From: a virus
Length of the DNA stretch: 64,000 nucleotides
IMG/VR virus record: IMGVR_UViG_3300037264_006128
Location: 32,452 to 96,451 of that record
Direction: 5' to 3' (one strand)
The notes under the pieces were generated by a model. That model was not told the origin of the DNA. It did not search any database and saw nothing but the letters and a program-made list of their open reading frames with translations. Within the stretch, counting starts at the first letter, position 1, and each line of letters starts with the position of its first letter. The position numbers and the translations under genes are program-made. Shown here piece by piece: positions 32,429-51,690 of this stretch.

Positions 32429-32998
32429 ATGAGGGGAAAGAAGGTCGCGCCGGAAGTCGAAGCAGCAATCATCCGCCAGTACGCTACTGGCCGATTCACC
32501 CAGGCTTTGCTGGCAAGCGCCTTTCACCTTTCCATTCCCACCGTGAACAAGATCCTGCGCGCGGCGGCCCCCCGGTACTCCAAACACGGGATGTCCAGCA
32601 GCCCGGAATACGATATGTGGGTGAAGCTGCGCCGCAAGCCGAACGTTTGCGCCAGGTGGAAGGCGTCCTTTTCCGACTTCATCCTGGACGTTGGCCCCCG
32701 GGCTACCCCGGAATGGGTGTTGCGCAGAAAGAATCCGATGCGGCCGTACGAACGCTCCAACTGCCAATGGGTGAAACGCCCCCGGGCAGTGCCGCAAAAG
32801 CCACGAACCGCCATCCGGGCACGCCAGCTGCCGAAGCACCTGACTTTCCGTGGCCGGACCATGAGCATCGCAGCCTGGGCGCGGGAAACCGGCCTCGGCT
32901 TTACCCGCCTGCGGGGAAGACTGCGCACAGGTTGGGGCACGGAAGAGGCCCTGACCACACCGCCGAACCAACCCCGCCAGACCCGGGCCGAAGGGTAA
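32429..32998 (+). CDS. HTH plus AP2/HNH-like homing-type DNA-binding protein
   Basis: 189 aa from ATG 32429 (AAGGTG upstream), rightward. Residues about 5-40 form a helix-turn-helix (ALLASAFHLSIPTVNKILRA). The middle, HGMSSSPEYDMWVKLRRKPN ... ARWKASFSDFILDVGPR ... YERSNCQWVKR, matches phage AP2/HNH-related proteins. In those the central catalytic/zinc part is longer; here it is shortened, with few of the usual Cys/His residues. The C-terminus (FRGRTMSIAAWARETGL; GWGTEEALTTP) is the associated HTH. Probably a degraded homing endonuclease that may still bind DNA. Confidence 0.75.
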   Translation: MRGKKVAPEVEAAIIRQYATGRFTQALLASAFHLSIPTVNKILRAAAPRYSKHGMSSSPEYDMWVKLRRKPNVCARWKASFSDFILDVGPRATPEWVLRRKNPMRPYERSNCQWVKRPRAVPQKPRTAIRARQLPKHLTFRGRTMSIAAWARETGLGFTRLRGRLRTGWGTEEALTTPPNQPRQTRAEG

Positions 32999-37765: not shown

Positions 37766-39316
37766 TCAAGCCCGAACTGGAATGAACCCCAGATGCCCAT
37801 GCCCGCGGTAGTATCTACTTAGGGCCTGCGTCATGGCGTCCACCTGATCGTCGTACCGCCCGATAGGGAAGGCCGATGCCTCGTCTAGGAACGCTTCAAC
37901 CCACGGGGCGTGGGCCGGAACGTGAACGTTCCCAGCTTCCACCTTCGGTGCCACTGCGTTGCCACGGGCAATCTTCCCGCCCTCCGGCGGAACCCCGATC
38001 AAGCCAGGCACCTGGCTTTTAAGGGCATTGACGATCGCCGTTCCGTTGGCCTTGTCCTCCACCAACGTAACGTTGGCCTGCGGCCACCGGCGGTCCATGC
38101 GCAGCACCAAGGACAGGGACTGCGTGAACGTTGCCCGGACGCGGACCAGATCGAGCAGGAACGCATCGGCGCCCAGGAATCCCCAAACCTGCCCGGCGAC
38201 GTAACTCGAATCTGTGGTGTCCTTGAAGCTCATGTCCCAGCTGACCACGATTGTGTCTACGCGATCAGGCAGCTGCGCCTTGTGGTAACGCACGAAGCTG
38301 TCCCGCTTGAAGATGCCACCACCGATTGGAACGGGACGTTGCTGAAACTGCGCTGAAAAGGCCACGTCCCCCAGTGTAATCCGCAAACTCTCGGTCATTT
38401 CCCGACCGAGACGCTCTGGGCATAGAAGTTCCCCTTCTTCTGTGCGCGGGTCGATCCATCCTATAGACGTGGGCCTCTTGTTGCCCTCGAACTCGTTCGG
38501 GAAGGACAGAAGTTCCACGCCCGAGTCGATCAAGTAGGCGGCAAGGTCATCGTTGTGACCACGTTGCATGATCGTGACACGGCAGTCGCTTTGTTGGTCG
38601 TTTAATCTAGTGCTCCATACTTCTCGATACCACCTAATTACACCTTTGCGTATAGGTTCGCTATGTATCTCTTCCAAGTTGTGCGGGTCGTCGCAAACCA
38701 GAAAATTGGCGCCCTGCCCCGTAGAACTACCACCTACGCTTGTGCTTATACGAAAGCCGCTTTTATTGTTCTGGAAGTGCGACTTTATGTTCTGGTCTGT
38801 GGTCATCGAGAACTTCGCACCCCAATGCTCTTGATACCACGCGCTATCGAGAAGCCTACGCGAAGTTACTGCGTGCGCTAGGCTAAGGGAACTTGAATAC
38901 GAAGCGAACAAGAACCGCAAAGACGGATCTATCGTCCATGCCCAGCACGGCCACGCTATGGACGTTATGGTACTTTTCGAAAAGCGCGGTGGCACGTTTA
39001 TGAGCAAATTACGTATACGTCTGGACATGACAGCTTCCAAATGGTCGCATATAGCTGTCATGTGCCAAGACCATACTAATGGCGCCCCAGGCTCAATATA
39101 CGGCCACGCTTGCTTAAAGAACTCCGCCAGCGTCAGCGCGGGCGCAGCCACGCGCGGCGTTTCGCCGCGCAGCACCGCGTCTGGGTCGTCAGAAACGAGT
39201 CCTTCCGCAAGCCGCTTAATTGCCAGCTGGCGCGGCGAGAACTTGGGTTTGGACTTCGACTTCGATTGGGTCTTCGTAGATTTTTGGCTTTGGGGCATCG
39301 ATGCGTACCGGGGCAT
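37766..39316 (-). CDS. terL: Terminase large subunit
   Basis: 516 aa (a second Met at 39298 is equally possible). ATPase: Walker A-like NVPPRFSKST (107-116), Walker B FLVCDDPHN (205-213). Nuclease of the RNase H type: Asp361 in VVSWDMSFKD, Glu420/Asp421 in LVEDKANG, Asp489-Asp493 in YDDQVDAM. It pumps and cuts DNA during packaging. It overlaps the upstream gene by about 100 nt. N-terminal 25 residues are Ser/Lys/Gln-rich and unstructured. Confidence 0.95.
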   Translation of the reverse strand: MPRYASMPQSQKSTKTQSKSKSKPKFSPRQLAIKRLAEGLVSDDPDAVLRGETPRVAAPALTLAEFFKQAWPYIEPGAPLVWSWHMTAICDHLEAVMSRRIRNLLINVPPRFSKSTITSIAWPCWAWTIDPSLRFLFASYSSSLSLAHAVTSRRLLDSAWYQEHWGAKFSMTTDQNIKSHFQNNKSGFRISTSVGGSSTGQGANFLVCDDPHNLEEIHSEPIRKGVIRWYREVWSTRLNDQQSDCRVTIMQRGHNDDLAAYLIDSGVELLSFPNEFEGNKRPTSIGWIDPRTEEGELLCPERLGREMTESLRITLGDVAFSAQFQQRPVPIGGGIFKRDSFVRYHKAQLPDRVDTIVVSWDMSFKDTTDSSYVAGQVWGFLGADAFLLDLVRVRATFTQSLSLVLRMDRRWPQANVTLVEDKANGTAIVNALKSQVPGLIGVPPEGGKIARGNAVAPKVEAGNVHVPAHAPWVEAFLDEASAFPIGRYDDQVDAMTQALSRYYRGHGHLGFIPVRA

Positions 39317-40325
39317 GAACCAGCGTGGTTATCTTCGCGCTGATCCGCTTCATCGCAGCAGGATCAGTCACTTCCTCCCTCAGAATCCAAACCAGCTGGT
39401 GCATGATCTGCAAGAACTCCTGCACGCTGATCAGGTTTTCCAGTTCCGTCTGCCGCTTGCGTTCCGTCTCTACCAGCTTCCTTCGTTGCTCGAACACCAT
39501 CTGCAACTCAGCCCATACGGCGGAATCGTTTTTGCGGTACAGGGCTTTGCGCATCTCCTCGACGTGCACTTGCGCCCCTTCGTAGTCCTGCCGGCGCATC
39601 GCCAGTTCCCACCGTTCGAACGCTTGCTTGGCCTGCACCCAACCCGGGCGGCTTTCGCCGGATTCCAGCTTTTCTAGCAGTTCGCAGGATCGCGCATCGA
39701 GCAGTGCGATCTCCTCCTGAAGCTCAAGTAGGTCGTCGGAAAGCCGCGACTTCTCGTACCGATCGGAAAGCCCGTGCGGAACTGCCTTACTGTACCTGGC
39801 AATCTTAGTCATGTGATTCAGAACCCCCATCAGGGCCTTGCCGCCGTGGAACCGGCACACGTGCCTGCCGCGGATAGACCAGTGCTTGCACCGGAACCGC
39901 CTCCCCCCATACTTCGTCACCCTTGGGGTCTTCCACGTGTGCGTGCACTGCTTCAGTCTCAAGGGCCCCTTCCAGTAGCGAATCATCACCATGAAGCGCT
40001 TGATCGCCTTGAACGTGTACGCATGCCGCTGCATGGCCTCGCGGAACTCCTGGTTCTTCCTGGCCATGATCAGGATATCCCGGCGCGTGAAGGGGCTGGT
40101 GAACTCCTTCGGGAGGAGCAGCTTCATTTCGAAGATCTTCTCCTCCACGAACATCTCGTGTTCGGCCAGGATGGCGCAGCGTTCTTCCCACGGCAGGGTG
40201 GTGTTGAGGCCGCGGATCTGTGCGGCCCTGCGGTTGTACGCTTCTTTCCATTCCGGCGTGCGCTTTTCGTCCGGCATGTTGTCCATGTCGAACTCTAGGC
40301 GCAGGATATCGATCTCTCTCATCAC
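39216..40325 (-). CDS. Putative terminase small subunit-like protein
   Basis: 369 aa, directly before TerL and overlapping it. The middle holds CKHWSIRGRHVCRFHGGKAL, a Cys-x...-Cys-x-x-HGG signature of DNA-packaging-associated proteins, here with HGGKA. Long helices flank it (residues about 195-330), as in small terminases. It is much longer than typical TerS (about 150-200 aa), so it may be fused to another function or be an unusual recognition subunit. An ATGATG start shares bases with the methyltransferase stop. Confidence 0.55.
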   Translation of the reverse strand: MMREIDILRLEFDMDNMPDEKRTPEWKEAYNRRAAQIRGLNTTLPWEERCAILAEHEMFVEEKIFEMKLLLPKEFTSPFTRRDILIMARKNQEFREAMQRHAYTFKAIKRFMVMIRYWKGPLRLKQCTHTWKTPRVTKYGGRRFRCKHWSIRGRHVCRFHGGKALMGVLNHMTKIARYSKAVPHGLSDRYEKSRLSDDLLELQEEIALLDARSCELLEKLESGESRPGWVQAKQAFERWELAMRRQDYEGAQVHVEEMRKALYRKNDSAVWAELQMVFEQRRKLVETERKRQTELENLISVQEFLQIMHQLVWILREEVTDPAAMKRISAKITTLVHAPVRIDAPKPKIYEDPIEVEVQTQVLAAPAGN

Positions 40326-43231
40326 TCATTTGCGGTTGCAATCGCCATCCCTTCTACTTCAACCGGCCCGCAGGCGCGCGTTGCAGCAAGCGGATCGCCT
40401 TTGCAAAAGACGAGGACGGTTTGATGCGAATGACCAAGTTTGCGGGCTTGCTGAAATTGGGCCTGAACTCGCAGCGGTAGGCTCCCAACCGGGGAAACGA
40501 TGATCGCCTCATTGTACAGCATTGCCCCAGCCGCTTCGAAAGCCGCAATCGCGTCCTTTGCGAACTTTCGATAGAATCCGGTCTTCTTGTCTCGGAAGTT
40601 CCCCACCACCACCATCGCGAAGCGATCGTTTTTCAGCGCCATCACAGCCTGCGCCACGATGGACGAAAAGGCCAGCATGAAGTCTTCGTACGACGGTGCG
40701 TTGCTTAGGTCTAGCGGATCGTCTGTGTAGATTTCCAAGTCCCCGTAAGGCGGACAGGTCATAATCATGTCAACCTGCTCCGCAATCCCCGCATTTCCCA
40801 GCACGGTTGCCAGATTGCGGCTGTCCCCTTGCAGCCACACCGGGGCCGGGAAGTCCGTTTCCGCTTGCGTCGGCAGTTCGCCGGATGCCTGCCCAGCTTC
40901 GCGGGTAACGGTATCGGCAGCCATCGCCGCAAGCGTTGCTGCCTGCCCCGGCGGGTTTGCATTCTCCCGTTCCTGCTTCTTTTCCCCCAGGTAACACTGC
41001 CAAACGTTTTCCGGCACGATAACTTCGATGTCCTCGCCCCGCACAACCCCATCGCGGATGCGTGTGTATTCCTCCTCCCCAAACAGCAACGTCAAGTTAC
41101 GGGCTAGGGCGTCAACTAGCATCGGCCCATTCCCGTGGGCCGTCTTGCAACAGCTGGTCTTCTGGGTGGTTCGGTTGTGTAGCACCACCGTTCCATTCTC
41201 GTTCAGGCGCAGCGGGTACAGATGGCACGTCACTGGGCGATCATCCCCCAGGGAACACCCTTGCGGCGTCAGGTGCGCGCAGGCCATGCCGGGGGTTGCC
41301 CGGGGCGGCCAGTATCCAACAGCATTGCAACACCCACCGCCGCAGCGGTCCCGGATTCCTTCCGCCGTGCAGTCGTGATTCCTTCGCAGCCAGGCAGCAC
41401 TGAACTTCCAGCGGACGGTGTTGCCGCTGGCCCCGGGGACCGCCACGCGCCTACCGACGCTCATCGTTTGCCGCACCCCGACCATCCACAGGAGGTCCCC
41501 ATCGTCAAGAAACGGAACGCACTTCGCTTCGTACACCGGATCCAGATTCAGACCGCCCCACGCGCGGTCCTGCGCCGGGGCCCACTGGTGGTAGTCGATC
41601 TGGGCATTCACCAATGTGCACATCTGCCGCCACAGGGGCGGGGCGTAAGCGTCAAGGCGGGCAGTTGGGTCCGCCCCTACCACAACCCCCAGCACCGGGA
41701 TGGTGATCCCCTTTTCCTGAAGGCCACGAAGGATGCCGGAAAGCGTCATCCCACTTCCAACCGGCACCACGATCCTCCGTACCCCATCCGGGAAACGATC
41801 TGGGATTTCCGTCGCCGTTTGTTCTGGCGCCTCTCGGCATTCCATCCCGAACGGAATCAGCCGCCACCCGGAACGCGCTTCGCAGTCTTCACGTGCGCGT
41901 GCCACGATCACGCTGTTATGCCCGGGGCTATGCTGGATCACTTCAGCCCCAGCGTTCGCTGCGGCCCGGATCTCCGGCGTCCATTCCCCTTCCGGCGTAT
42001 GCACCCGGCACGGGATTTCCAGGCCACGCGCGATGTGCGCCACGATCGCCACCTGTGGGCTTTGCCTGGAACCGGCCGTGATCAGGCCGGCCGGGATTTC
42101 CCCCGCAGAAGCGATGTGGAAGCACGTACGGGCCTTTCCCCCGCGCACCCCAGCGATGGCGTACAGATCATCCCGCTTCGCCCAGATCGACTTCCCGCCG
42201 ATCGTTTCCGGCGCAACCTGTTCGATCGGGGTTTGCCCCCCGTTCCAATCCGGCGCGGCTTCCCACACCACCTGCCCCCCGAACACCTGGCGCACCCGCG
42301 GGCCAACCTCTTTCCACTGTTCGTCGTTCGCATCGCATTGATCTTGCCGCAGGTCCACACCGATGTACTTCCGCCCCAGGGCCGCCGCCACAATCCCACG
42401 CACGCTTCCGCCAGCGAAAGGGTCCAGCACGACTCCCGCAATCGGGCAGAACCATCGATACGCCAGCTCCGCCACCACGGGATCAAAGATGCTGATATTC
42501 TGAACGTCGGCATCCGACGCTGTGCGGCGGGTAGTGATCTGGAACGTGGGCAGCTTCATCTCCGGCCGCCCCAGTTCGCTGCGAATCCCCAAAGAAAGCC
42601 ACGCCCGCTTACGTTCGATCCAGTACCCCTGCCTGCCATCCCACACCGTGAAGGGCGGGATCAGGAACCGTTGGGCAAGGCTACCCACCACGCCATCGCA
42701 GTATCGTTCGTCAGGCGTCAGGCCGTCCGAGTACACGTTCAGATCACCCGGCTGCCGCTGCGTGGCAACCCGGCGCGCGTTAAGCTCCTGCAGCTGCTCC
42801 GTAGAAAAGATCCCCTGCGTTGCGCCAGCCTTCGCCAGCATTTGAAGGCGGTCCACGTTCCACGTTGCCAGTTCCGCCGTGCGGTTGTCGTACAAGGCAA
42901 GGCGCTTCTTCTGTTCTTCGGTAAGGCCCGTACGTCGAACGGCAACCAGTTCGTCAGCTTTGGCATCGACGATACGAACCTTCTTGACGCCAGCTTCCAA
43001 CGCCCCCAGCTGCGTAGCGTTCCCGGCCAGGATCACGTTGTTCTCGTCGATCACGATACTGCGCGCCGTACCCACTTCGCGGATCGAACCGGCAATCATG
43101 CCGATGTTCTCCAGCGTGTGATCCCGGGCATTCTCGGGGTCTTGCACCAGCTTGTTCAGCTTCTTGTAGGTATCGCGTTCGACCGGTTCGCCTTCGCACT
43201 CGTCGTCTTCCACCTGATCGTCAGTCGGCAT
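40322..43231 (-). CDS. ParB-DNA methyltransferase split by PLP-enzyme and Cys-cluster domains
   Basis: 969 aa. ParB/sulfiredoxin-like domain (27-140; DPENARDHTLENIGMIAGSI, VILAGNATQLGALEAGVKKV). SAM-binding motif I DPFAGGSVRGIVAAALG (270-286) and GVDLR (291-295). Then residues about 332-590 form a fold-type-II PLP enzyme like ACC deaminase/D-Cys desulfhydrase: WAKRDDLYAIAGVRGGKART with PLP Lys366, and VVPVGSGMTLSGILRG (488-503) for phosphate binding. Residues about 610-700 hold a Cys cluster (C621, C630, C634, C635, C651, C659, C669, C694, C695). Methyltransferase resumes at about 793 with GDS (802) and catalytic TCPPYGDLE (825-833), ending HQTVLVFCKGD. Phage ParB-MTases normally keep the two MTase halves about 30 residues apart; here the gap is about 460. 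It modifies DNA bases; the PLP part may add or supply a further group. Its start overlaps the GT gene stop. Confidence 0.85.
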   Translation of the reverse strand: MPTDDQVEDDECEGEPVERDTYKKLNKLVQDPENARDHTLENIGMIAGSIREVGTARSIVIDENNVILAGNATQLGALEAGVKKVRIVDAKADELVAVRRTGLTEEQKKRLALYDNRTAELATWNVDRLQMLAKAGATQGIFSTEQLQELNARRVATQRQPGDLNVYSDGLTPDERYCDGVVGSLAQRFLIPPFTVWDGRQGYWIERKRAWLSLGIRSELGRPEMKLPTFQITTRRTASDADVQNISIFDPVVAELAYRWFCPIAGVVLDPFAGGSVRGIVAAALGRKYIGVDLRQDQCDANDEQWKEVGPRVRQVFGGQVVWEAAPDWNGGQTPIEQVAPETIGGKSIWAKRDDLYAIAGVRGGKARTCFHIASAGEIPAGLITAGSRQSPQVAIVAHIARGLEIPCRVHTPEGEWTPEIRAAANAGAEVIQHSPGHNSVIVARAREDCEARSGWRLIPFGMECREAPEQTATEIPDRFPDGVRRIVVPVGSGMTLSGILRGLQEKGITIPVLGVVVGADPTARLDAYAPPLWRQMCTLVNAQIDYHQWAPAQDRAWGGLNLDPVYEAKCVPFLDDGDLLWMVGVRQTMSVGRRVAVPGASGNTVRWKFSAAWLRRNHDCTAEGIRDRCGGGCCNAVGYWPPRATPGMACAHLTPQGCSLGDDRPVTCHLYPLRLNENGTVVLHNRTTQKTSCCKTAHGNGPMLVDALARNLTLLFGEEEYTRIRDGVVRGEDIEVIVPENVWQCYLGEKKQERENANPPGQAATLAAMAADTVTREAGQASGELPTQAETDFPAPVWLQGDSRNLATVLGNAGIAEQVDMIMTCPPYGDLEIYTDDPLDLSNAPSYEDFMLAFSSIVAQAVMALKNDRFAMVVVGNFRDKKTGFYRKFAKDAIAAFEAAGAMLYNEAIIVSPVGSLPLRVQAQFQQARKLGHSHQTVLVFCKGDPLAATRACGPVEVEGMAIATANE

Positions 43232-43901
43232 ATTCGATCCCCTTCGCCCTCGGGAACTTCTCGTACGGTGTGGTTGGTTCCCACTTAGCCATCCGTACCG
43301 GCTTCCCTAGATCATAGTCCTCTTGTGCCTGGTAACGCCAGTGCGTAACCGCACCTAGGCAAACTATTCTCGGCTGCGGGTCCATTTCCCCCACCTGCCA
43401 CCAGAAGCGCAGATCGCTACCGTGCCCTTTCGTTGCCTGCCGCCGCGGGTCCGGGTGCCAGCCGATAGGGGATAGATCGAAGGAAAATCTGGCTGGGGCA
43501 AAGATGCTCCGTTTCCCCCAGTCGGTCATCTCCCGAAGCAGGTCGATCGATACCCGCAGCATCACCGTCCCGGAAAACAGGAACATCCCTTCCCTATTGC
43601 TGTGCAGGTTCCATTGCCCATTGCGGCACGGGGCAGCGGCGAAAAGTATCGTTTTGGTGTGGTTCGCGGGGGACATCGCCAGATCCCAGATCCGGGCATC
43701 CGCCGTGATGTCGTCTTCGATCAGCAACAGATCCCGGCCCTCCCCCATGGCGATCCTTACCGCTTCGTTCTTTGCCTCCGCCGCCGGCAATCCCGACACA
43801 AGCCGGAATATCCCCCCGTGCCTGTATGCGTGCGCGACCGCTTCCGACAAGCACAAGGCCGGGCACACCCCGCGGGTGATAACTACGGCTACGGGGTACA
43901 T
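43221..43901 (-). CDS. GT-A-like glycosyltransferase
   Basis: 226 aa from ATG 43901; the longer frame lies over the GT9 gene. YPVAVVITRGVCPALCLSEA opens a Rossmann-like half, LLLIEDDITADARIWD carries a DxD-like metal site (EDD), and GSDLRFWWQVGEM plus GAVTHWRY form an acceptor-side block. This is the layout of small GT-A transferases that act on surface glycans or DNA sugars in phages. Overlaps the GT9-like stop by 13 nt and the methyltransferase start by 11 nt. No clear Shine-Dalgarno; coupling is likely. Confidence 0.65.
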   Translation of the reverse strand: MYPVAVVITRGVCPALCLSEAVAHAYRHGGIFRLVSGLPAAEAKNEAVRIAMGEGRDLLLIEDDITADARIWDLAMSPANHTKTILFAAAPCRNGQWNLHSNREGMFLFSGTVMLRVSIDLLREMTDWGKRSIFAPARFSFDLSPIGWHPDPRRQATKGHGSDLRFWWQVGEMDPQPRIVCLGAVTHWRYQAQEDYDLGKPVRMAKWEPTTPYEKFPRAKGIEYAD

Positions 43902-44761
43902 TTCAGGAGGCTTTCTGTGACTTCGACAACCATCGCCGGATCGATACCTTGGCACTTCCAGTCCGTGCACTTGTGCCAAACTGGGGTCGAAACACACGGC
44001 TGGCATACGTAGTTCGTGTGCAGCTTGTAGGTAGGGCGGCCGACCGGATCGCCCTTCATGGCGCTTACGGCAGTATACAGAACGACGGTTGGCACCCCAA
44101 GGGAAGACGCCATGTGCACCTGCCCACTGTCGATGCCAACGATCACCCGGCACATCGCCAGGTGTTCCGGCAGCTGCACCAACGGAACGTTCCCGATCAC
44201 CTGCGTGTCGTCAATCCCTTCTGTGTCCATCGGAACCCCAATCGCCGCAACGTTCAACCCTTTCGCGCGGAGCATCTTCGATACTTCACCCATGGCCGGG
44301 TAACGCTTCCGCGCCCAAACGGAACTTGGTTTGCACCCATTGACCAGCCCAACATCGAACCGTGGCACCGTGCGATGCAAGCCGGAACACCAGTTGGAAA
44401 CATCGATCAGGCCGGGGCTGCCGATCATCTTGCACGGCAGTTCCCATTCCGGGCATTCGTAAACAGGCTCGTGCAACCACCGTGCGTGCATCAGGAGGGG
44501 GAACCCGCGCAGCTTCCTGGGGCACCAATGCCCAGAGATGTAGAAGTCTGCCTGCGGAACGTCTTCCCACCGACCGTCCAGCACCCGTTCCGCGAAAGCG
44601 CACCGGTTCCACAGGGGCGTCATGTCGTAGTCGCCATCCACGAACAGCGTGATGCGCGCTCCGGCCGTGCGCAGCTTCTTGATCGCAGGAAGGCAAAAGA
44701 TCGAATTCCCGATCCCGGAACTCAACCCGAAGACGACACTTTTTCCAGCAAACTGCTCCAT
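43889..44761 (-). CDS. Glycosyltransferase family 9 (heptosyltransferase-like)
   Basis: 290 aa from ATG 44761 (a GTG at 44773 also possible). GLSSGIGNSIFCLPAIKKLR is the GT9 opening (GIGDxxxxxPxLxxLR), and CRVIVGIDSGQVHMASSLGV with PTVVLYTAVS is the donor-site block near residues 205-235. GT9 enzymes add heptose to LPS core, but in phages may use other sugars. Two shared pairs of Cys (CQPCVSTPVWHKC) near the C-terminus are unusual. Start overlaps the GT-B gene by 40 nt. Confidence 0.85.
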   Translation of the reverse strand: MEQFAGKSVVFGLSSGIGNSIFCLPAIKKLRTAGARITLFVDGDYDMTPLWNRCAFAERVLDGRWEDVPQADFYISGHWCPRKLRGFPLLMHARWLHEPVYECPEWELPCKMIGSPGLIDVSNWCSGLHRTVPRFDVGLVNGCKPSSVWARKRYPAMGEVSKMLRAKGLNVAAIGVPMDTEGIDDTQVIGNVPLVQLPEHLAMCRVIVGIDSGQVHMASSLGVPTVVLYTAVSAMKGDPVGRPTYKLHTNYVCQPCVSTPVWHKCTDWKCQGIDPAMVVEVTESLLKCTP

Positions 44762-45606
44762 GCTTTTGCCCACACCTCGAATCCGTAGTTGCCGTAGAAG
44801 GATGGATGGAAGCGCCCGCGCGCCATTGCGGCAAGCACGATCCCGGCGATCTGCCCCGGCTCTGCGTCCAGGGGAATTACATGCGCCCGGAATTCCGCTG
44901 CGTTCCCCACCGGGGTACTGATCACAGTCAGGCCGGCAGCTTCCGCATCAGCAACCGAATACGAACCGCCTTCGCTCAACGACAGGCACAGGTAGCCATC
45001 TGCCTTAGCGTACGTGATGGCCCGCTGCACATCGGTCGTAAAGTGCAGCGGAACGAACTCGAACTGCGGGAGCAAACGAGCAACGCTTTCCCACAGTCCC
45101 GCCCCCTTGTTAGCGTCCCTGAAGTCCCCAACGATTCGCAATCTGTCCCGCCCCATCTTCCGGCCAGTGGGCTTTCGTTTGATAGGCGGTACCCAGTTCA
45201 CGATCACCGTGGCGTAATCCAGGGGCAGACCGTAGTGGCGGCAGAACTGATCCCGCACCCAAGCGGAAGGCGCCACGTAGGTCCGGTTGGGTTTGTCGAA
45301 CATCTTCCGTTGGCCGTTGCAGATCTCAAGCGTTCTGCGCGTGCGCCATTCTGGGTCGCGGTCGTAATGGCACTGCGCCATCCCGTGGTGCGTGACCACG
45401 GTGCGAATATCGTCGGGCACAAGCAACGAAAGGTGGTTGTCCACAATCACGATGTCGTCACGATCGAACCGCGGAAGCTCGTCCGGTGTGATGGATTCCA
45501 GCCCCGGAATCGCCATCCGCAAGTAGGAATCAAACCGCACCACCCCCGTACGGATCTGCCCCGGCGGGACATCTTCTTGCCGCTTCGCTACCAGGGAATA
45601 GATCAC
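44722..45606 (-). CDS. GT-B glycosyltransferase
   Basis: 294 aa from a GTG start at 45606, coupled to the upstream stop (GTGA at 45606-45603). The longer frame is a shadow of the deacetylase gene. C-terminal half is GT4-like: RLRIVGDFRDANKGAGLWES, AKADGYLCLSLSEGGSYSVADA and AGLTVISTPVGNAAEF, the EGGSYSV part corresponding to the E-x7-E donor site. The N-terminal half (DDIVIVDNHLSLLVPDDIRT) is the acceptor domain. Cytoplasmic. Part of the sugar cassette. Confidence 0.8.
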   Translation of the reverse strand: MIYSLVAKRQEDVPPGQIRTGVVRFDSYLRMAIPGLESITPDELPRFDRDDIVIVDNHLSLLVPDDIRTVVTHHGMAQCHYDRDPEWRTRRTLEICNGQRKMFDKPNRTYVAPSAWVRDQFCRHYGLPLDYATVIVNWVPPIKRKPTGRKMGRDRLRIVGDFRDANKGAGLWESVARLLPQFEFVPLHFTTDVQRAITYAKADGYLCLSLSEGGSYSVADAEAAGLTVISTPVGNAAEFRAHVIPLDAEPGQIAGIVLAAMARGRFHPSFYGNYGFEVWAKAWSSLLEKVSSSG

Positions 45607-46361
45607 TGCTTGCCCACACACGCCGCCGCAATGAATCCCTCTGGCGAAAGCGCATACGGCGCAATCATTGCGGCAAGTGCTTCTACCCCTTTGAACAACG
45701 GGGCGGAAGTGACCTCCCACGGAATATGCACAACAATCACGGCAAAACCGGGAGTCTCCAGCATGCCAGGAATCGTTTCGAGCAACGGCGCCACAGTGCC
45801 TTCGCCCATCCGCTTGCACGTCGCCCCGTACAGTGGGTACCAGGATGGAATGAACGTCGTGCCACGCGCCGGGTATGGCGGCGGAGGGGTGTCCCACCGC
45901 GAGGGAGAAACGTCGTCGTGGTTTGCGCCGCCCCAAACGTAGTCTATTTCCTCCGCGTGCAAGATATCCAAGGTCTCGCAAGTCACGGCGTTGAATGGCG
46001 GAACGTAGTGCCTGGTTTTGCTTCCCGTGCAGTCGAGCAAGAGCGCCTGCCCTGCCGCAACCCGCGCCCTTTGCTGATCGGGCGTAAGGCAGTGAAATTC
46101 GTGCCGTACACCGCCGGAGGTCGTATGGTCCCAGCCGTGCAGTGCGACGGTTAAACCATCCGGCTTGCTAGAGAGCCATTGCTTGGCTTCAACGTCGTTC
46201 ACAACGGAAGCCGGGATCAGCGCCCCAAGGTACGGAACCCCATTCATCGCATCGTGGAATGCCCGGGCCAGCCGCAGCCCAGTATCAGGCTTTTTGAGCG
46301 GGAAGTCATCAGCGGCATCGCCAGAGAAGCCAATGTCATCGACCCTTGTCAGAAATCTCAT
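45603..46361 (-). CDS. Polysaccharide deacetylase-like (NodB-type) protein
   Basis: 252 aa. RVDDIGFSGD (6-15) gives Asp8/Asp9, VALHGWDHT (72-80) gives the metal ligands His75/His79, and RHYVPPFNAVTCETLD (117-132) is the motif-3-like RxPY/F site. This is the TIM-barrel of carbohydrate esterase 4-like enzymes, in the DUF2334-like branch. Removes acetyl groups from sugars. Overlaps both neighbours by 4 nt (ATGA and GTGA), so expression is coupled. Confidence 0.8.
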   Translation of the reverse strand: MRFLTRVDDIGFSGDAADDFPLKKPDTGLRLARAFHDAMNGVPYLGALIPASVVNDVEAKQWLSSKPDGLTVALHGWDHTTSGGVRHEFHCLTPDQQRARVAAGQALLLDCTGSKTRHYVPPFNAVTCETLDILHAEEIDYVWGGANHDDVSPSRWDTPPPPYPARGTTFIPSWYPLYGATCKRMGEGTVAPLLETIPGMLETPGFAVIVVHIPWEVTSAPLFKGVEALAAMIAPYALSPEGFIAAACVGKQ

Positions 46362-47068
46362 TCACGGCCTCCTGCATTGCCCCAAATAAAGTCGCCAGCT
46401 TTCCCCCCTACCATGAAGAGTAGGTCCACAATGGACACCTGCGGATCGTACGGAGGGTAAAGCTGTGGGTATTCTGGATAATCGTAAGTCATGTACTCAA
46501 GGCCGATTCCGGCGATGTGGAACTTCTCCTCCTCTAGGTAGTTGCTGGCGGCTGGCCCGGTGATGTAGTGCGTCGCCTTCAATTGCCCGAGAATCGATAA
46601 AAGCCGGTCAGTTTTTTCCCCTTCCGCGTCAAGGGTAGACGACCGCACGAATTTCGTATCGCGAATGCCAAGCAACCAAGAAAGCTCAATGGTCAGGTCA
46701 ATTACGAAATCCGCCAGGAATTCCGGCTGCCGCTCGTAAAAGTTCCTTATAGCATGGCCGTATTCGCTGAAGCATGGGGCCCTTCCATAGGACTGCTCGA
46801 TTGTCATCCAATGCTTCCTGCCCCACCGCTCTGCCTGCGAAACGCGGATCTCGTTTGTTTTTCTGCCATCCGCCACGTTGCCTTTGCTTTGCACGGGAAT
46901 CGTCAACCACCTGCTTCCCTGCGCCGTCTTCACGCGATTGCGGTTACGCCAGCCATGCTTGTCGTACTGTACGTCATCGTAGAATACGAATGTGTCGGCA
47001 CGGTATATCTGGTGGAAGTGCCCTCGCCACGGCACGTACGATGGCTGTAGGATCACGCACTTCATCAC
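46358..47068 (-). CDS. WbqC-like family protein
   Basis: 236 aa. The opening is diagnostic: LQPSYVPWRGHFHQIYRADT, FVFYDDVQYDKHGWRNRNRV and GSRWLTIPVQSKGN. WbqC proteins are found in O-antigen and sugar-nucleotide clusters and are predicted aminosugar or amino-acid transferases; no enzymatic assay is cited here. It sits with aminotransferase and acetyltransferase genes, which suits synthesis of an N-acylated aminosugar. Confidence 0.9.
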   Translation of the reverse strand: MMKCVILQPSYVPWRGHFHQIYRADTFVFYDDVQYDKHGWRNRNRVKTAQGSRWLTIPVQSKGNVADGRKTNEIRVSQAERWGRKHWMTIEQSYGRAPCFSEYGHAIRNFYERQPEFLADFVIDLTIELSWLLGIRDTKFVRSSTLDAEGEKTDRLLSILGQLKATHYITGPAASNYLEEEKFHIAGIGLEYMTYDYPEYPQLYPPYDPQVSIVDLLFMVGGKAGDFIWGNAGGRE

Positions 47069-47071
47069 ACC

Positions 47072-47620
47072 TTATTCCGTTCCAACCTTAAGCTGCCTGA
47101 AGTCCGACTCGACAATCCCCATATACAGCATCGGCAGCCACCGCCCATCATGTAGGCGTTCGTCTCGCAGCACCCCTTCGAGTACATATCCAACTCGGCT
47201 GAAGGCGTTGAGCGATGCCCAGTTGTCGGCGTGAATGCTGGCCCATACTTTATGCAACCCGTGCTTCTCGATTCCCGCCTGGGTGCCCAAATAGATTGCC
47301 GTACGCCCTACCCCCCTGCCACGGCATTCAGCCTGGCCCACATAGAGCGATAGTCGCGCATTTTTCACATATGTGTCAATCCGATCCAACACCACGTTCC
47401 CGACATGCGCGCCATTGGCGATTACCGCGAATGCACTGATTGATGGATCATCGCAGGCCCGCTCAATCCACGCCGCAGTTGCGCTGAGGCTTGGCTGCCT
47501 TCTAAGCCCGAAATTCACGCTGACTTGCGGGTCGCACATCCACGCATACATAGCTGGTGCGTGTTGTGCTCCGATGGGCGCGAGCGCTATGTCTGATCGT
47601 ATTGTAATCGCAGAGCACAT
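47072..47620 (-). CDS. GNAT acetyltransferase
   Basis: 182 aa. The acetyl-CoA site is GQAECRGRGVGRTAIYLGTQ (Q/RxxGxG/A type), with ARLSLYVG before and LHKVWASIHADNWASLNAFS, RVGYVLEGVLRDE after, matching RimJ/RimL-type N-acyltransferases. In sugar operons such enzymes N-acetylate aminosugars. Next to the DegT-like gene (3-nt gap). Confidence 0.88.
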   Translation of the reverse strand: MCSAITIRSDIALAPIGAQHAPAMYAWMCDPQVSVNFGLRRQPSLSATAAWIERACDDPSISAFAVIANGAHVGNVVLDRIDTYVKNARLSLYVGQAECRGRGVGRTAIYLGTQAGIEKHGLHKVWASIHADNWASLNAFSRVGYVLEGVLRDERLHDGRWLPMLYMGIVESDFRQLKVGTE

Positions 47621-47622
47621 AA

Positions 47623-48252
47623 TTACCCCACCATTCGTGCGGCAACCCTAACGGCAGCGGCGGTGTAGACAGGTGATTTTTCCAGATCCGGGTATCCCTG
47701 CTCTTCAACGGGCAAGTCTGCTAATTCCTTGTGGGCAACCGCATCGAACAGCAGTATTCCACGTGCTGCTTGCTCTGGCATCATATAAGCGTTCACACCG
47801 ATCACCTCGAATCGGCCCTGCATGTTCAGGCCGCACTCCTCCCGGCCATCGAATCGAGCCAGGCGTAGCCACCGAGCCGCATCGGGATCGTTCGTCAAGA
47901 TCATCCCGCCGCGCCCAATCGGAAGGTGCTTGCGGATGTGAAAAGATAGGCAGTGTAGGCCACCGGCATACATCTTGCGCCTGAACCGCAATGCGCCGTC
48001 CCAGATGTTGTAGGGTCTTAACTCGTAGGCGCCATCCCATGATTCGCGGAGGAAGACAACTGAACCCCCAGCCAGGATGATGGAACATGGGACGCTGGGG
48101 TAGGTTCTGGCCGGGATGTAGGTCCTTCCTACCTTTACGTACATGCAACTGAGCAGGATAGCCGCAGATCCACTTTCTACAGCAATGGCATGTTTGGCAC
48201 CGGCATATTCAGCCACCCGACGCTCGAATTCCCTGACGATTCCGTATGGCAT
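47623..48252 (-). CDS. Short DegT/DnrJ/EryC1 aminotransferase-like protein
   Basis: 209 aa against about 370 for full enzymes. It keeps the large-domain core: Gly-Ser-rich phosphate site (ESGSAAILLSC, 26-36), Asp85 in YNIWDGALRF, and PLP Lys108 in CLSFHIRKHLPIGRGGMILT. FDGREECGLNMQGRFEVIGV and NAYMMPEQAARG follow. The C-terminal small domain is missing, a known shorter phage-type form. Likely transaminates a keto-sugar, or acts as a PLP-binding partner. Confidence 0.78.
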   Translation of the reverse strand: MPYGIVREFERRVAEYAGAKHAIAVESGSAAILLSCMYVKVGRTYIPARTYPSVPCSIILAGGSVVFLRESWDGAYELRPYNIWDGALRFRRKMYAGGLHCLSFHIRKHLPIGRGGMILTNDPDAARWLRLARFDGREECGLNMQGRFEVIGVNAYMMPEQAARGILLFDAVAHKELADLPVEEQGYPDLEKSPVYTAAAVRVAARMVG

Positions 48253-48282
48253 TTCAATCCTCGGCTACTTAGCTGTGCAGGA

Positions 48283-49017
48283 TCAGGAAAGCGGCCACCG
48301 ATTTTTGCGGACAAAATGGAATTTTAGGATTTCGCCACCAACATTACCTTGTTCGTCCATTCGGTACAGCTTCTTTCCGCGCAGCACGCATCTGTTCCAC
48401 ACTTCATGCCGATCGTGGGCGTTAATCCCGGCAGCGTACAGGCAGCGCATTCGGCCGGCGGCGGATGCATTCCGCACGATGCTCTCCATGCCAGCCTCAC
48501 CTAAGTGGTAGTCCCCTGTTGGGCACCGGACCATATCTGGCCGATCTTGGTATAGCCGCACAATCGAAGGCGTGTTCTTGAACAACTGAAGCGGGCCGTT
48601 CACAGTAGCGCCGTTAGTTGATATCGCATCGAACTGAGACAAGATCCCGTCATTGAGGAACGAGTCCCAATCCCCCCACACCACGTCCCAGTCTCCATAG
48701 CCCCACCACGGATAATCCTGAATGATCTCCTGATACACGTCGGCCATCAACGGGCACAATTCGCACACCAGCTGCCCTGGGATATATCGTGGATCATACT
48801 TATGAATTGCGATCCCCGAAACCTCCGATGCCCGGCGTTGGAATTCGTCCATGGTGCATGGGATACGCACCACCCGCACTTCTGGAACCCAGGCGGCTGC
48901 ATCGCCGACTAGCACCGGCATCAGCGCCTCTATGTCTGTCGTGCGCAGCAGGAATTGCCGCTCCCAACCAGGCGATGGCCCCCACCAGGGCAGGAACACA
49001 GCAACCTTTGCCGTCAT
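48283..49017 (-). CDS. DUF6625-like glycosyltransferase
   Basis: 244 aa. AVFLPWWGPSPGWERQFLLR opens the protein and WWGYGDWDVVWGDWDSFLND is its most telling block: a (W)GxGDxDVVxGD site like the D-x-D of GT-A enzymes in the DUF6625/TupA-like group. FHFVRKNRWPL closes it. No signal peptide; cytoplasmic. Part of the sugar cassette. Confidence 0.7.
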   Translation of the reverse strand: MTAKVAVFLPWWGPSPGWERQFLLRTTDIEALMPVLVGDAAAWVPEVRVVRIPCTMDEFQRRASEVSGIAIHKYDPRYIPGQLVCELCPLMADVYQEIIQDYPWWGYGDWDVVWGDWDSFLNDGILSQFDAISTNGATVNGPLQLFKNTPSIVRLYQDRPDMVRCPTGDYHLGEAGMESIVRNASAAGRMRCLYAAGINAHDRHEVWNRCVLRGKKLYRMDEQGNVGGEILKFHFVRKNRWPLS

Positions 49018-49033
49018 TGTCAGAACTACCTTC

Positions 49034-49657
49034 CTAGCAAGCCTCGGTGCGTGCGATTTCGTCTGAATTCATACGTGTCCACCAAATGCTCGTATTCGGC
49101 ACTACGTTGATGTGCCATCCCGCGAAAGAGTGAACGGCGGCCCGAACTCGCTGGTCGGCATAATCGTGTCCGCAAAGCAGGCCGCCGGGTTTCAGGTTTG
49201 GCAGCCACGCCTTTATGTCTCCGGTGACACCTTCCGTGTGATGTGCCGCATCGACAAACACTACGTCCGTAGATCGACCATCAACCAAGGTGGCCGCCTG
49301 AATCGTAAATTCGTGGATCACCGGGCAAAGGAGGTCCGGCCGGATGCGCATCACTTCATCACGTACGGCCATGAATTCGCGCTCTGTGCTGCCACCCGAT
49401 TTTTCGAGTTCTACCTCGACCGCCGCATCGTACGTTCCGGTTCCGCCATCGAATGTATCGACGGCTATGATCGTTGAGCCCGCAGGTAGGCTTAGAGCAA
49501 CGCAGGCCCAACTGCGCCCCCGCCAGGTGCCGAGTTCCACCCACTGCGCACCGGGCGTTAGATAGCCAGCAATAAAGGAAAGCCAACGCAGTGCCGCTTC
49601 CTCCATCCAGCCACTGACCCCAAGTGAAAATCCAACCGGTGAAACGTCTGCCTGCAT
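49034..49657 (-). CDS. SAM-dependent methyltransferase (Methyltransf_24)
   Basis: 207 aa from ATG 49657, just after the upstream TAA. Motif I WVELGTWRGRSW, motif II STIIAVDTFDG, motif IV DVVFVDAAHHTEGVTGDIKA and LKPGGLLCGHDY match class I O-methyltransferases of the Methyltransf_24 group, often found in glycan biosynthesis loci. Acceptor unknown, probably sugar hydroxyl. Confidence 0.88.
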   Translation of the reverse strand: MQADVSPVGFSLGVSGWMEEAALRWLSFIAGYLTPGAQWVELGTWRGRSWACVALSLPAGSTIIAVDTFDGGTGTYDAAVEVELEKSGGSTEREFMAVRDEVMRIRPDLLCPVIHEFTIQAATLVDGRSTDVVFVDAAHHTEGVTGDIKAWLPNLKPGGLLCGHDYADQRVRAAVHSFAGWHINVVPNTSIWWTRMNSDEIARTEAC

Positions 49658-49659
49658 TG

Positions 49660-50301
49660 TTACACGCTTGTTCCGTATCCCCATACCTGCGCTAGGTTCA
49701 CGAGGGGCAAGTTGCATTCAAACACGCCGCGCAGGTAGGTTTTGTCTTCTTCGCTGGCCCACTTGTAGCTAGCCGCCCGATCTGCATCCAAGGCACGTAT
49801 GCCCCCCATGGTCAAGGCCGCCTCTGGCGAACACCTCATGCTGGCTGCCAGCTCGTCAAAATGCTTACGTGCATCTTTGGCCCCAAAGAACTTGAGCAAA
49901 TCCGATTCAATAGACAACGGGGCGCACACGAGATCCTCGAACTTTACAACCCTCGCCTGATCTGCATATGCCGGCATCAGCGCCATAGCCGTGGCAACCT
50001 GCGCACACGCGATCCACCGATCTGGCGACACCCAATACTGGCCCGGGGCCTTCCAGTGCTTAGAGATCAGCACGCAGCGTGGGTCGCGCATCACGTAGAC
50101 GATGCGGAGTTCCGGGTCTTCGTCCGCAAGGATCAAGGCGCGCTCGCCAACGAGGGGAAGCCTTCCAATGCTGTAGGGGGCGTCGTTCCTCTCTGGCATC
50201 CCCTCCCACTCTAAAATTACGGCCCCTGGAAGGGCAGCCGCTAGCAAGTGCGCCATCAGCGTGGTGCCGCTTCTCGCGCATCCTGTCACAAGAACCCTCA
50301 C
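49660..50301 (-). CDS. Sulfotransferase
   Basis: 213 aa from GTG 50301 coupled to the upstream stop (GTGA). The 5'-phosphosulfate loop RVLVTGCARSGTTLMAHLL (2-20) and the 3'-phosphate block RIVYVMRDPRCVLISKHWKA are the PAPS-binding signatures. Transfers sulfate from PAPS to a hydroxyl or amine, presumably a sugar. PAPS would come from the host, as no synthesis gene is seen here. Sulfotransferases are rare in phages. Confidence 0.88.
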   Translation of the reverse strand: MRVLVTGCARSGTTLMAHLLAAALPGAVILEWEGMPERNDAPYSIGRLPLVGERALILADEDPELRIVYVMRDPRCVLISKHWKAPGQYWVSPDRWIACAQVATAMALMPAYADQARVVKFEDLVCAPLSIESDLLKFFGAKDARKHFDELAASMRCSPEAALTMGGIRALDADRAASYKWASEEDKTYLRGVFECNLPLVNLAQVWGYGTSV

Positions 50302-50801
50302 TGCTTCACCCCGGACATAAGGGCGTGAAGTTCCCCCATCCACTCAAAATCGCGGATGTCAACGCCCCACTTCACGGCATCTCCGAACAGCCGCATGTAG
50401 TCCGCAACCTCCATGTCCCGCACGTGCACCGCGCCAGGGGACTCGACGTTCTCAAGGAGGACCATGGCGCCACCAGGGCGTAACGCGCGAACAAGAGAGA
50501 GTGCCGCCGCATCGAGTAGATCGTCGTCCGTAATGTGCTGAAGCACCGTGCAGGTGATCACCAGATCGACGCCAATCAAAAACGCCCCGGGGAATCTTGT
50601 CCGCAGCCGCTTTAACATGCGCCCGTAGCCGCTTCCGAATTCAAGGATCTGGTCAGCAGCCTCGGGAAGGAACGGAAGCATCTGCGCAAAATAGAAGTCC
50701 CCCTGTTCCTCAACGGCCTTCCCGCCATGCGCCGCCTGTTCAGCCCCGGCGCCCATGCGGGTGCGCCAGTAGTCCACGTACGTCTTCCCGGTCAGCTTCA
50801 T
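50298..50801 (-). CDS. SAM methyltransferase with shortened core
   Basis: 167 aa. Motif I ILEFGSGYGRMLKRL (52-66) and GVD (77-79) run straight into VITCTVLQHITDDDLLDAA (81-99), then LRPGGAMVLLENV. The usual 25-35 residues between the second strand and motif IV are absent, so it has a small internal deletion or an unusually compact core. It may be inactive. Couples to the GT2 gene upstream (ATGA) and the sulfotransferase downstream (GTGA). Confidence 0.72.
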   Translation of the reverse strand: MKLTGKTYVDYWRTRMGAGAEQAAHGGKAVEEQGDFYFAQMLPFLPEAADQILEFGSGYGRMLKRLRTRFPGAFLIGVDLVITCTVLQHITDDDLLDAAALSLVRALRPGGAMVLLENVESPGAVHVRDMEVADYMRLFGDAVKWGVDIRDFEWMGELHALMSGVKQ

Positions 50802-51532
50802 GCGTCAATGTCCGGCCCCAATGGGGCCCGGTTGTTCCAGCATGAATCTTCAGCCTTCCATAGAAAAGTGAGCACTAACCCAGGCACGCAAACGACGTAG
50901 CCTCCTTTGGCGACAACGGATTGCGGGGCCCGGTGCGTGATCCAATGATCCACTTCGCTACCGCATCCACGGCTTTCTGGGGTCTTGGCGTAACGTTCCC
51001 GCCATTCAGGCGGCATCATATCCGGCCTGCACGGGGTATGCAGGCCGCGGCTTTGGAGCGGCATCACGCCAGCCCAATAATCGCGGTGGGCATGCAGGTG
51101 CGTGGCCCGGCAGTTGCCTTTGCCGGTAACGCTGACGCCGTTGACAACTTCGCTGCGGACCGCCTTGTGCTCCGCGGCATCATGCCCAGTCAGAAGCGGC
51201 CTTGTGCCCCGGTCTTGCACTTTTGCCAGCACCTGCAGGGCGTCTTTCCGCACGTCCACGTCGTCCTGGAAGTACGATATCCATTCGACTGCGGGGTCTG
51301 CCAGCCAGTAAGACAGCCCGATGTTCATTGCGGCGGCTAGGCCACGGTTCTCCGGCAGGAACAAGAACGCAGCGCCGTGATCTTCGGCTAGGGATTCGTT
51401 CTGGTCAAGATCCGCAGGATTCGATCCGTCGTCAACCACCAGCACGGGGGCCCCCAACCCAACGATCTGCGGCAACGATCGCGCCAGGGCCTGCGGCCGG
51501 TTGTAGGTGGTAACAAAGACGGCGGTGCTCAT
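50798..51532 (-). CDS. GT2-type glycosyltransferase
   Basis: 244 aa from ATG 51532. STAVFVTTYNRPQALARSLP, VLVVDDGSNPADLDQ and WISYFQDDVDV give the GT-A opening, the first Asp and the DxD. The rest is an extended acceptor domain with Trp/His-rich segments (CRATHLHAHRDYWAG). Starts the sugar cassette in transcription order and is coupled (ATGA) to the 53-aa gene. Confidence 0.87.
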   Translation of the reverse strand: MSTAVFVTTYNRPQALARSLPQIVGLGAPVLVVDDGSNPADLDQNESLAEDHGAAFLFLPENRGLAAAMNIGLSYWLADPAVEWISYFQDDVDVRKDALQVLAKVQDRGTRPLLTGHDAAEHKAVRSEVVNGVSVTGKGNCRATHLHAHRDYWAGVMPLQSRGLHTPCRPDMMPPEWRERYAKTPESRGCGSEVDHWITHRAPQSVVAKGGYVVCVPGLVLTFLWKAEDSCWNNRAPLGPDIDA

Positions 51533-51690
51533 GCCCCGACATCCCTCTTCGCCCGACGCCACACGGATTTCGTGGTGGGCGCCCACCCCCCCAGCTTCAA
51601 CAGCCGATCCCGTTCCTGTTCGGCGTGCTTGCCGATCAGCCTGGCAATCCGCCCCCGGTTCGCATCGGTCCCGCGCAACGTTTTTGCCAT
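51529..51690 (-). CDS. Small basic protein
   Basis: 53 aa, basic, mostly helical (DANRGRIARLIGKHAEQERD). Its ATG overlaps the upstream stop (TGATG) and its TGA overlaps the GT2 start (ATGA). No family recognised. Confidence 0.55.
   Translation of the reverse strand: MAKTLRGTDANRGRIARLIGKHAEQERDRLLKLGGWAPTTKSVWRRAKRDVGA

Follow-up and report, generated by a model that had tools for sequence, protein, structure and literature searches.

In hypermodification phages, an amino acid:DNA transferase (ADDT) attaches an amino acid to hydroxymethyldeoxyuridine (hydroxymethyl-dU), and pyridoxal phosphate (PLP) enzymes of the M6/ViI type, as Lee et al. are said to have reported in 2021, decarboxylate amino acids linked to DNA. 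Enzymes dependent on PLP require an amino group, usually that of an alpha-amino acid, and to our knowledge the known PLP-dependent phage hypermodification begins from hydroxymethyl-dU. The DNA of phages M6 and ViI contains 5-(2-aminoethyl)-dU and 5-(2-aminoethoxy)methyl-dU (PMC6449724), and the genome paper for phage SN1, a relative of M6, places its PLP gene in an M6-like thymidine-modification cassette (PMC9476957). We describe here a 969-residue open reading frame (ORF) in which a PLP enzyme domain of this ancestry, together with a cysteine-rich domain, splits a ParB-fused DNA methyltransferase (MTase) in two. The ORF occupies 40322..43231 on the minus strand of the window, a 64,000-nucleotide stretch (positions 32,452 to 96,451) of the 96,451-base virus record IMGVR_UViG_3300037264_006128 in IMG/VR, a record that may be incomplete. 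Homology of the PLP domain to the cassette enzymes and its linkage to the MTase support a hypermodification role well, and the protein is probably a self-contained phage hypermodification enzyme with PLP chemistry performed on DNA, or for it.

The ORF is intact, with an ATG start, and matches to PHROGs, Pfam and hidden Markov models (HMMs) give its domain order, all on the minus strand. A ParB/Srx-like domain at residues ~20-155 (42767..43174) matches phrog_620 over residues 21-133 (E 6e-24), with AlphaFold2 pLDDT mostly 84-96. The N-terminal half of the MTase follows at residues ~189-306 (42314..42667), running from FLIPPFTV through DPFAGGSVRG to IGVDLR and holding the S-adenosylmethionine (SAM)-binding motif I and motif II (HMM MTN; Pfam piece 266-301). 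Next come the PLP domain, residues ~331-587 (41471..42241), and the Cys-cluster domain, residues ~601-757 (40961..41431). The C-terminal half of the MTase, residues ~798-955 (40367..40840), carries motifs III, IV and beyond (HMM MTC; phrog_498 at 782-959, E 6e-89). Both halves match the DNA-MTase families phrog_498 and phrog_12517, and Pfam N6_N4_Mtase (PF01555) matches in two pieces, scoring 44.2 bits against a cut-off of 26.7. AlphaFold mean pLDDT is ~90-98 across most of 331-587 and both MTase halves, and ~94-98 in most of the PLP domain taken alone; the model is poor at 617-704, in the Cys-cluster region. A preliminary description, made from the sequence alone, had already named the ParB domain, the split MTase, the fold-type-II PLP enzyme with Lys366 and the nine-Cys domain, and Pfam, PHROGs, Protein Data Bank (PDB) profiles and alignments agree with it. 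Its residue numbers are likewise correct: DPFAGGS begins at 270, VRGGKA, which contains Lys366, at 362, and TCPPY at 825. The spacing of about 30 residues that it took as normal between the two MTase motifs is wrong. In the unfused relative Vincenzo gp1, ~62 residues separate DPFAGG(S/P)VRG from CPPY; the window ORF has 545, which sets the insert at ~480 residues. An assembly artefact or a one-off freak fusion is ruled out, as dozens of independent contigs carry this insert, far more than chance would allow.

The inserted PLP domain matches Pfam PALP (PF00291) at 331-524 with E 7e-20 and 72 bits, against a cut-off of 35. Profile searches of the PDB return D-cysteine desulfhydrase (4d8t, E 2e-14) and 1-aminocyclopropane-1-carboxylate (ACC) deaminase (1j0a, E 3e-14), the kinship first proposed for it, and the catalytic lysine and tyrosine motif align with both structures. 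The AlphaFold structure of the 332-590 region is a PLP fold, whose best Foldseek match is again a D-cysteine desulfhydrase (7ysl, E 1.5e-11). Across an alignment of 71 relatives, the predicted Schiff-base lysine, Lys366 (codon at 42134..42136), is kept in all 69 that cover the column, Tyr567 and Lys570 of the Y-x-x-K motif are kept in 71 of 71, and each residue of the phosphate-binding GSG at 492-494 is kept in at least 66. With invariant catalytic residues and with profile and predicted fold in agreement, the domain is predicted to be a complete fold-type-II enzyme rather than a remnant.

Phage relatives of this domain form two related families, phrog_3650 and phrog_7093. The latter is the PLP gene of Bordetella phage CN2 and of Pseudomonas phages M6 and YuA, and SN1 carries it too; in CN2 it lies two genes away from the ADDT gene. 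The former includes Vincenzo gp2, a search with which matched 342 phage records with numerous Ackermannviridae among them, and Montesquieu gp41, whose gene adjoins an annotated thymine pyrophosphorylase and genes with P-loop nucleotide kinase domains. By family membership and by phylogeny, the domain is homologous to the PLP enzymes of thymidine-hypermodification cassettes in M6/YuA/CN2 and in Ackermannviridae. The complex base modification proposed in the preliminary description gains strong, sequence-based support from this homology and from the coupling of the modules; its putative metal or Fe-S component fits the invariant cysteines described below.

The architecture is real and recurrent: scores of unrelated phages have these parts too, either as fusions or as neighbouring genes, as the preliminary description had thought they might. 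Among cultured phages, a fused protein without the Cys domain is found in Pseudanabaena phage Pam4 and in Erythrobacter phages R6L and ZS04. PLP and MTase genes are separate and adjacent in Microcystis phage Mae-JY30 and in Mycobacterium phages Vincenzo and AlanGrant, and Staphylococcus phage Alsa_1 has the PLP gene close to a more distant MTase. A scan of IMG/VR with the PLP motifs alone found 56 loci, in 54 of which the MTase is either part of the same protein or encoded elsewhere on the retrieved stretch. A scan with the Cys domain alone found 23 loci; the MTase is present at 22 of them, and the contig of the last is cut off. By comparison, none of the MTase, PLP or Cys models matched in 684 kb of control sequence, taken from 80 loci around relatives of the window's terminase. 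Fisher p-values against these controls are 5e-36 for the PLP loci and 2e-21 for the Cys loci, values that illustrate the contrast only, since the loci are related. A single-sequence scan of IMG/VR with the whole protein gave no match; profile scans did find relatives. Bacterial genomes scanned with the PLP motifs gave none, and a ParB-MTase-PLP profile applied after that scan found 80 loci, with a PLP or Cys module in 29. The PLP and Cys modules are nearly obligatory companions of MTases of this family.

The modules are combined in many ways. Clustering at 80% gave 128 MTase lineages, in which PLP is fused in 40, adjacent in 28 and neither in 60, and the Cys module is fused in 13 and adjacent in 5; these frequencies are biased by queries that themselves contained PLP and Cys modules. 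The window's order, with PLP and then Cys between the MTase halves, recurs at four loci (L025, L155, L156, L160). Other loci have MTase/Cys/PLP (L151-L153), three separate neighbouring genes (L030, L033, L044), MTase/Cys (L163, L224), Cys/MTase (L210), PLP at the C-terminal end of the MTase (L177), or Cys without PLP between the two MTase halves (L096, L100, L165, L169). The PLP tree has two sides, one joining M6/CN2 with R6L/JY30 and the other joining Ackermannviridae, Montesquieu and Vincenzo with the window and Pam4 (SH-aLRT 98), and fused PLP-MTase proteins are present on both. A single fused clade, as a single origin would give, is rejected (p-AU 1e-10), so the fusion arose at least twice. 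The MTase tree is poorly resolved, and the interleaving of module types in it fits repeated gain and loss of modules. PLP insertions at the same motif II-III gap occur in both halves of the PLP tree, which suggests that this loop brings the PLP site near the MTase site. At one locus (L041:5467-8101), a fused PLP-MTase stands beside a second, PLP-free MTase gene, possibly a duplicated or two-subunit arrangement.

The MTase itself departs from N6/N4 MTases at one motif. Motif IV of N6/N4 MTases is defined as [SDN]PP[FYW] (PMC10853773). In the window it reads TCPPY (residues 825-829; 40745..40759), with Cys in place of S, D or N, and the form xCPPY is found in 128 of 128 MTase lineages, a count valid for the ParB-MTase family from which the HMM was built and not for distant kin; the more distant MTase of Alsa_1 reads TSPPY. 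An ordinary m6A or m4C methyltransferase, with PLP and Cys modules that regulate it or bind a metabolite and leave the base unchanged, would agree with the intact motif I (DPFAGG) and with the many MTase lineages that have neither module. The universal xCPPY is difficult to reconcile with such an enzyme, as is an invariant PLP catalytic lysine, which a scaffold or sensor need not retain; moreover, the modules can also be encoded by separate genes next to one another, making a structural role dependent on insertion unlikely. We regard plain methylation as improbable.

The Cys-cluster domain has nine cysteines, at 621, 630, 634, 635, 651, 659, 669, 694 and 695. Seven of these (621, 630, 634, 651, 659, 669, 695) are invariant in 16 relatives, and conservation of C635 is 90% or higher, giving a pattern CX8CX3CC followed by four further conserved cysteines. 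This eight-Cys domain probably binds metal, and a metal or Fe-S cluster fits its invariant residues. It looks like an undescribed, dedicated partner family. Membership in the metal-chelating CxxCxxCC, YkgJ and DUF3109 families is not supported: DUF3109 scored below its cut-off (19.9 bits against 33.5; sub-threshold in 7 of 16 members, best E 1.4e-6), and hhalign gave no match to YkgJ or YcgN. The best phmmer matches in the PDB, to designed beta-trefoils, are a composition artefact. A second subtype of the domain (KPFGCIASPFTLNKNNTLIVRNRY) is the one fused to PLP-free MTases at L096, L100, L165 and L169, which suggests that the Cys module also has a role independent of PLP.

The partner genes of the classical pathway were sought in the window's record and in those of Pam4, R6L, ZS04, Mae-JY30, Alsa_1 and Vincenzo, the latter six being complete. 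No ADDT (PF18724) was found in any of the seven, with CN2 positive as control, and no thymidylate-synthase-like dUMP hydroxymethylase, with CN2 and Montesquieu positive as controls. The profile for 5-hmdU DNA kinase (HMUDK, PF18723) left the window's record unmatched, and the controls as well. Among the neighbours of 68 distinct loci, whose representatives were not profile-searched, no modification gene was recognised as recurring; the recurrent families recognised are packaging, portal or replication-type genes, or spurious antisense ORFs. With ADDT and thymidylate synthase homologues absent and no modification gene recurring, the MTase is the predicted stand-in for the enzyme that installs the amino acid.

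A pathway can be sketched on this basis. The ParB/MTase part would engage DNA, the MTase fold would move a SAM-derived group onto a base, and the PLP domain would then process the base-tethered amino acid, most likely by decarboxylation, as in the M6-type pathway. The 3-amino-3-carboxypropyl (acp) arm of SAM would be the simplest donor, because it supplies an alpha-amino-acid substrate with neither hydroxymethyl-dU nor an amino-acid:DNA transferase; TYW2 transfers the same aminocarboxypropyl group in tRNA. The end product would be an N-(3-aminopropyl) base, which may protect phage DNA against host nucleases, and the Cys domain, holding Fe-S or Zn, may assist in the transfer or in redox chemistry. 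By analogy, acp transfer followed by PLP decarboxylation is a tentative proposal, well short of probable. The same reserve applies to its extension to the whole CPPY family, in which the MTase would transfer acp rather than methyl and the PLP and Fe-S-like modules would decarboxylate or rearrange a DNA-linked amino acid.

Several observations weigh against hypermodification along these lines. Transfer of acp to DNA was not reported within the literature searched, and the weak model of the Cys domain matches no solved fold by Foldseek. Neither a PLP nor a Cys module is present in 52 of the 128 MTase lineages, so the MTase must be useful alone as well, perhaps for plain methylation. By PDB profiles and Foldseek, the PLP domain also resembles enzymes working on free amino acids. 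In a rival reading, it would consume a free amino acid and supply the MTase/Cys part with sulfide, ammonia or some other reactive small molecule, from which a thiolated or aminated base, for instance, could be made. Its closest solved structures are those of D-cysteine desulfhydrase and ACC deaminase, its Y-x-x-K motif is as in ACC deaminase, a Cys-rich domain would suit sulfur chemistry, and R6L has a PAPS-reductase-like gene nearby. The deeper PLP phylogeny, however, links the domain to thymidine-hypermodification enzymes, most PLP-MTase lineages do not have the Cys domain, and neither PAPS reductase nor any other modification gene was recognised as a recurrent neighbour. This route seems unlikely, if somewhat less so than plain methylation. 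The R6L gene itself (L003:3541-4584) lies a few genes upstream of the fused ORF, and its recurrence at other loci was not seen.

Other features of the window lie beside the ORF or within it. Directly upstream is a co-oriented island (43221-51586, minus strand) that overlaps the ORF start by 11 bp. It encodes GT9, GT1-like and GT2 glycosyltransferases, a polysaccharide deacetylase (DUF2334), WbqC, a GNAT protein, a short DegT aminotransferase, DUF6625, SAM methyltransferases and a sulfotransferase. It looks like a phage-borne glycan-synthesis cluster, although its GNAT and transferases might conceivably also modify the altered base. Between the 969-residue ORF and the terminase, a 369-residue ORF (39216-40325, minus strand) with the motif CRFHGGKALMG has no Pfam match and a marginal PHROG match only. 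In the ParB domain, the window has AGNATQ as its box II and Pam4 has AGNHTL; of these and R6L (AGHGRT), only the last retains the Arg required for NTP binding by ParB-fold proteins (PMC12704722), and with that Arg missing, nucleotide binding may have been lost in the window and Pam4.

The literature searched contains no earlier description of the PLP/Cys-MTase architecture, although mention is possible in major hypermodification papers outside it. A survey of ParB fusions published in 2025 includes those with methyltransferases; neither PLP nor pyridoxal turned up when its main text was searched for these words (PMC12704722). The architecture points to an undescribed chemical decoration of viral DNA: a PLP hypermodification lineage is coupled to a DNA methyltransferase fold where no ADDT or thymidylate synthase homologue was detected, and this combination is seen in several cultured phages and across scores of viral lineages. 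It predicts a DNA base not yet described, a trait that counters restriction and possibly a DNA alkyltransferase drawing on a part of SAM other than its methyl group. Were acp the group transferred, one phage polypeptide would make an aminoalkyl base from SAM alone, a new kind of base made by new enzymology.

Among known systems, FliB, a flagellin lysine methyltransferase, is a SAM enzyme with a [4Fe-4S] cluster and the motif CX4CX3CC (PMC8598068). It resembles the window protein (CX8CX3CC) in pairing a Cys-rich motif with SAM chemistry, but in pattern only, no homology having been detected. D-cysteine desulfhydrase and ACC deaminase share the PLP fold, the catalytic Lys and the K-R-D-D and Y-x-x-K motifs, whereas the window's PLP domain is shorter and embedded in an MTase.

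In the CmoX/CmoY 5-carboxymethylcytosine system, CmoX, a phage homologue of DNA MTases, adds a group that derives from SAM but is not methyl and that serves as a handle (PMC12783734), and by analogy this sets a precedent for such chemistry in phage DNA-MTase homologues. A carboxymethyl handle of this kind might also serve here, the PLP part working on an amino acid attached to it: ParB genes are often near CmoX loci, and glycine can be ligated to the handle (PMC12783734). That system needs CmoA, however, and no match to CmoA (TIGR00740) was found in the window's record and eight phage records, with E. coli positive as control, on which ground a phage-encoded carboxymethyl pathway is rejected (host CmoA being possible). 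CmoX, moreover, has SPPC in a C5-MTase fold, whereas the present family has CPPY in an N6/N4-type fold. The carboxymethyl handle is accordingly a very improbable alternative.

Phage ParB-MTase fusions (PF02195 with PF01555; PMC12704722) have the same ParB and MTase domains; the proteins described here differ from them by their PLP modules, Cys modules or both, which lie within the motif II-III loop or adjacent to the MTase. Finally, the thymidine-hypermodification cassettes of M6/YuA/SN1 and the ViI-like Ackermannviridae have in common with the window a homologous fold-type-II PLP enzyme and its conserved catalytic Lys. Those cassettes use hydroxymethyl-dU and an amino-acid:DNA transferase, whereas here, with homologues of ADDT and thymidylate synthase absent, the PLP enzyme is joined instead to an N6/N4-type MTase.

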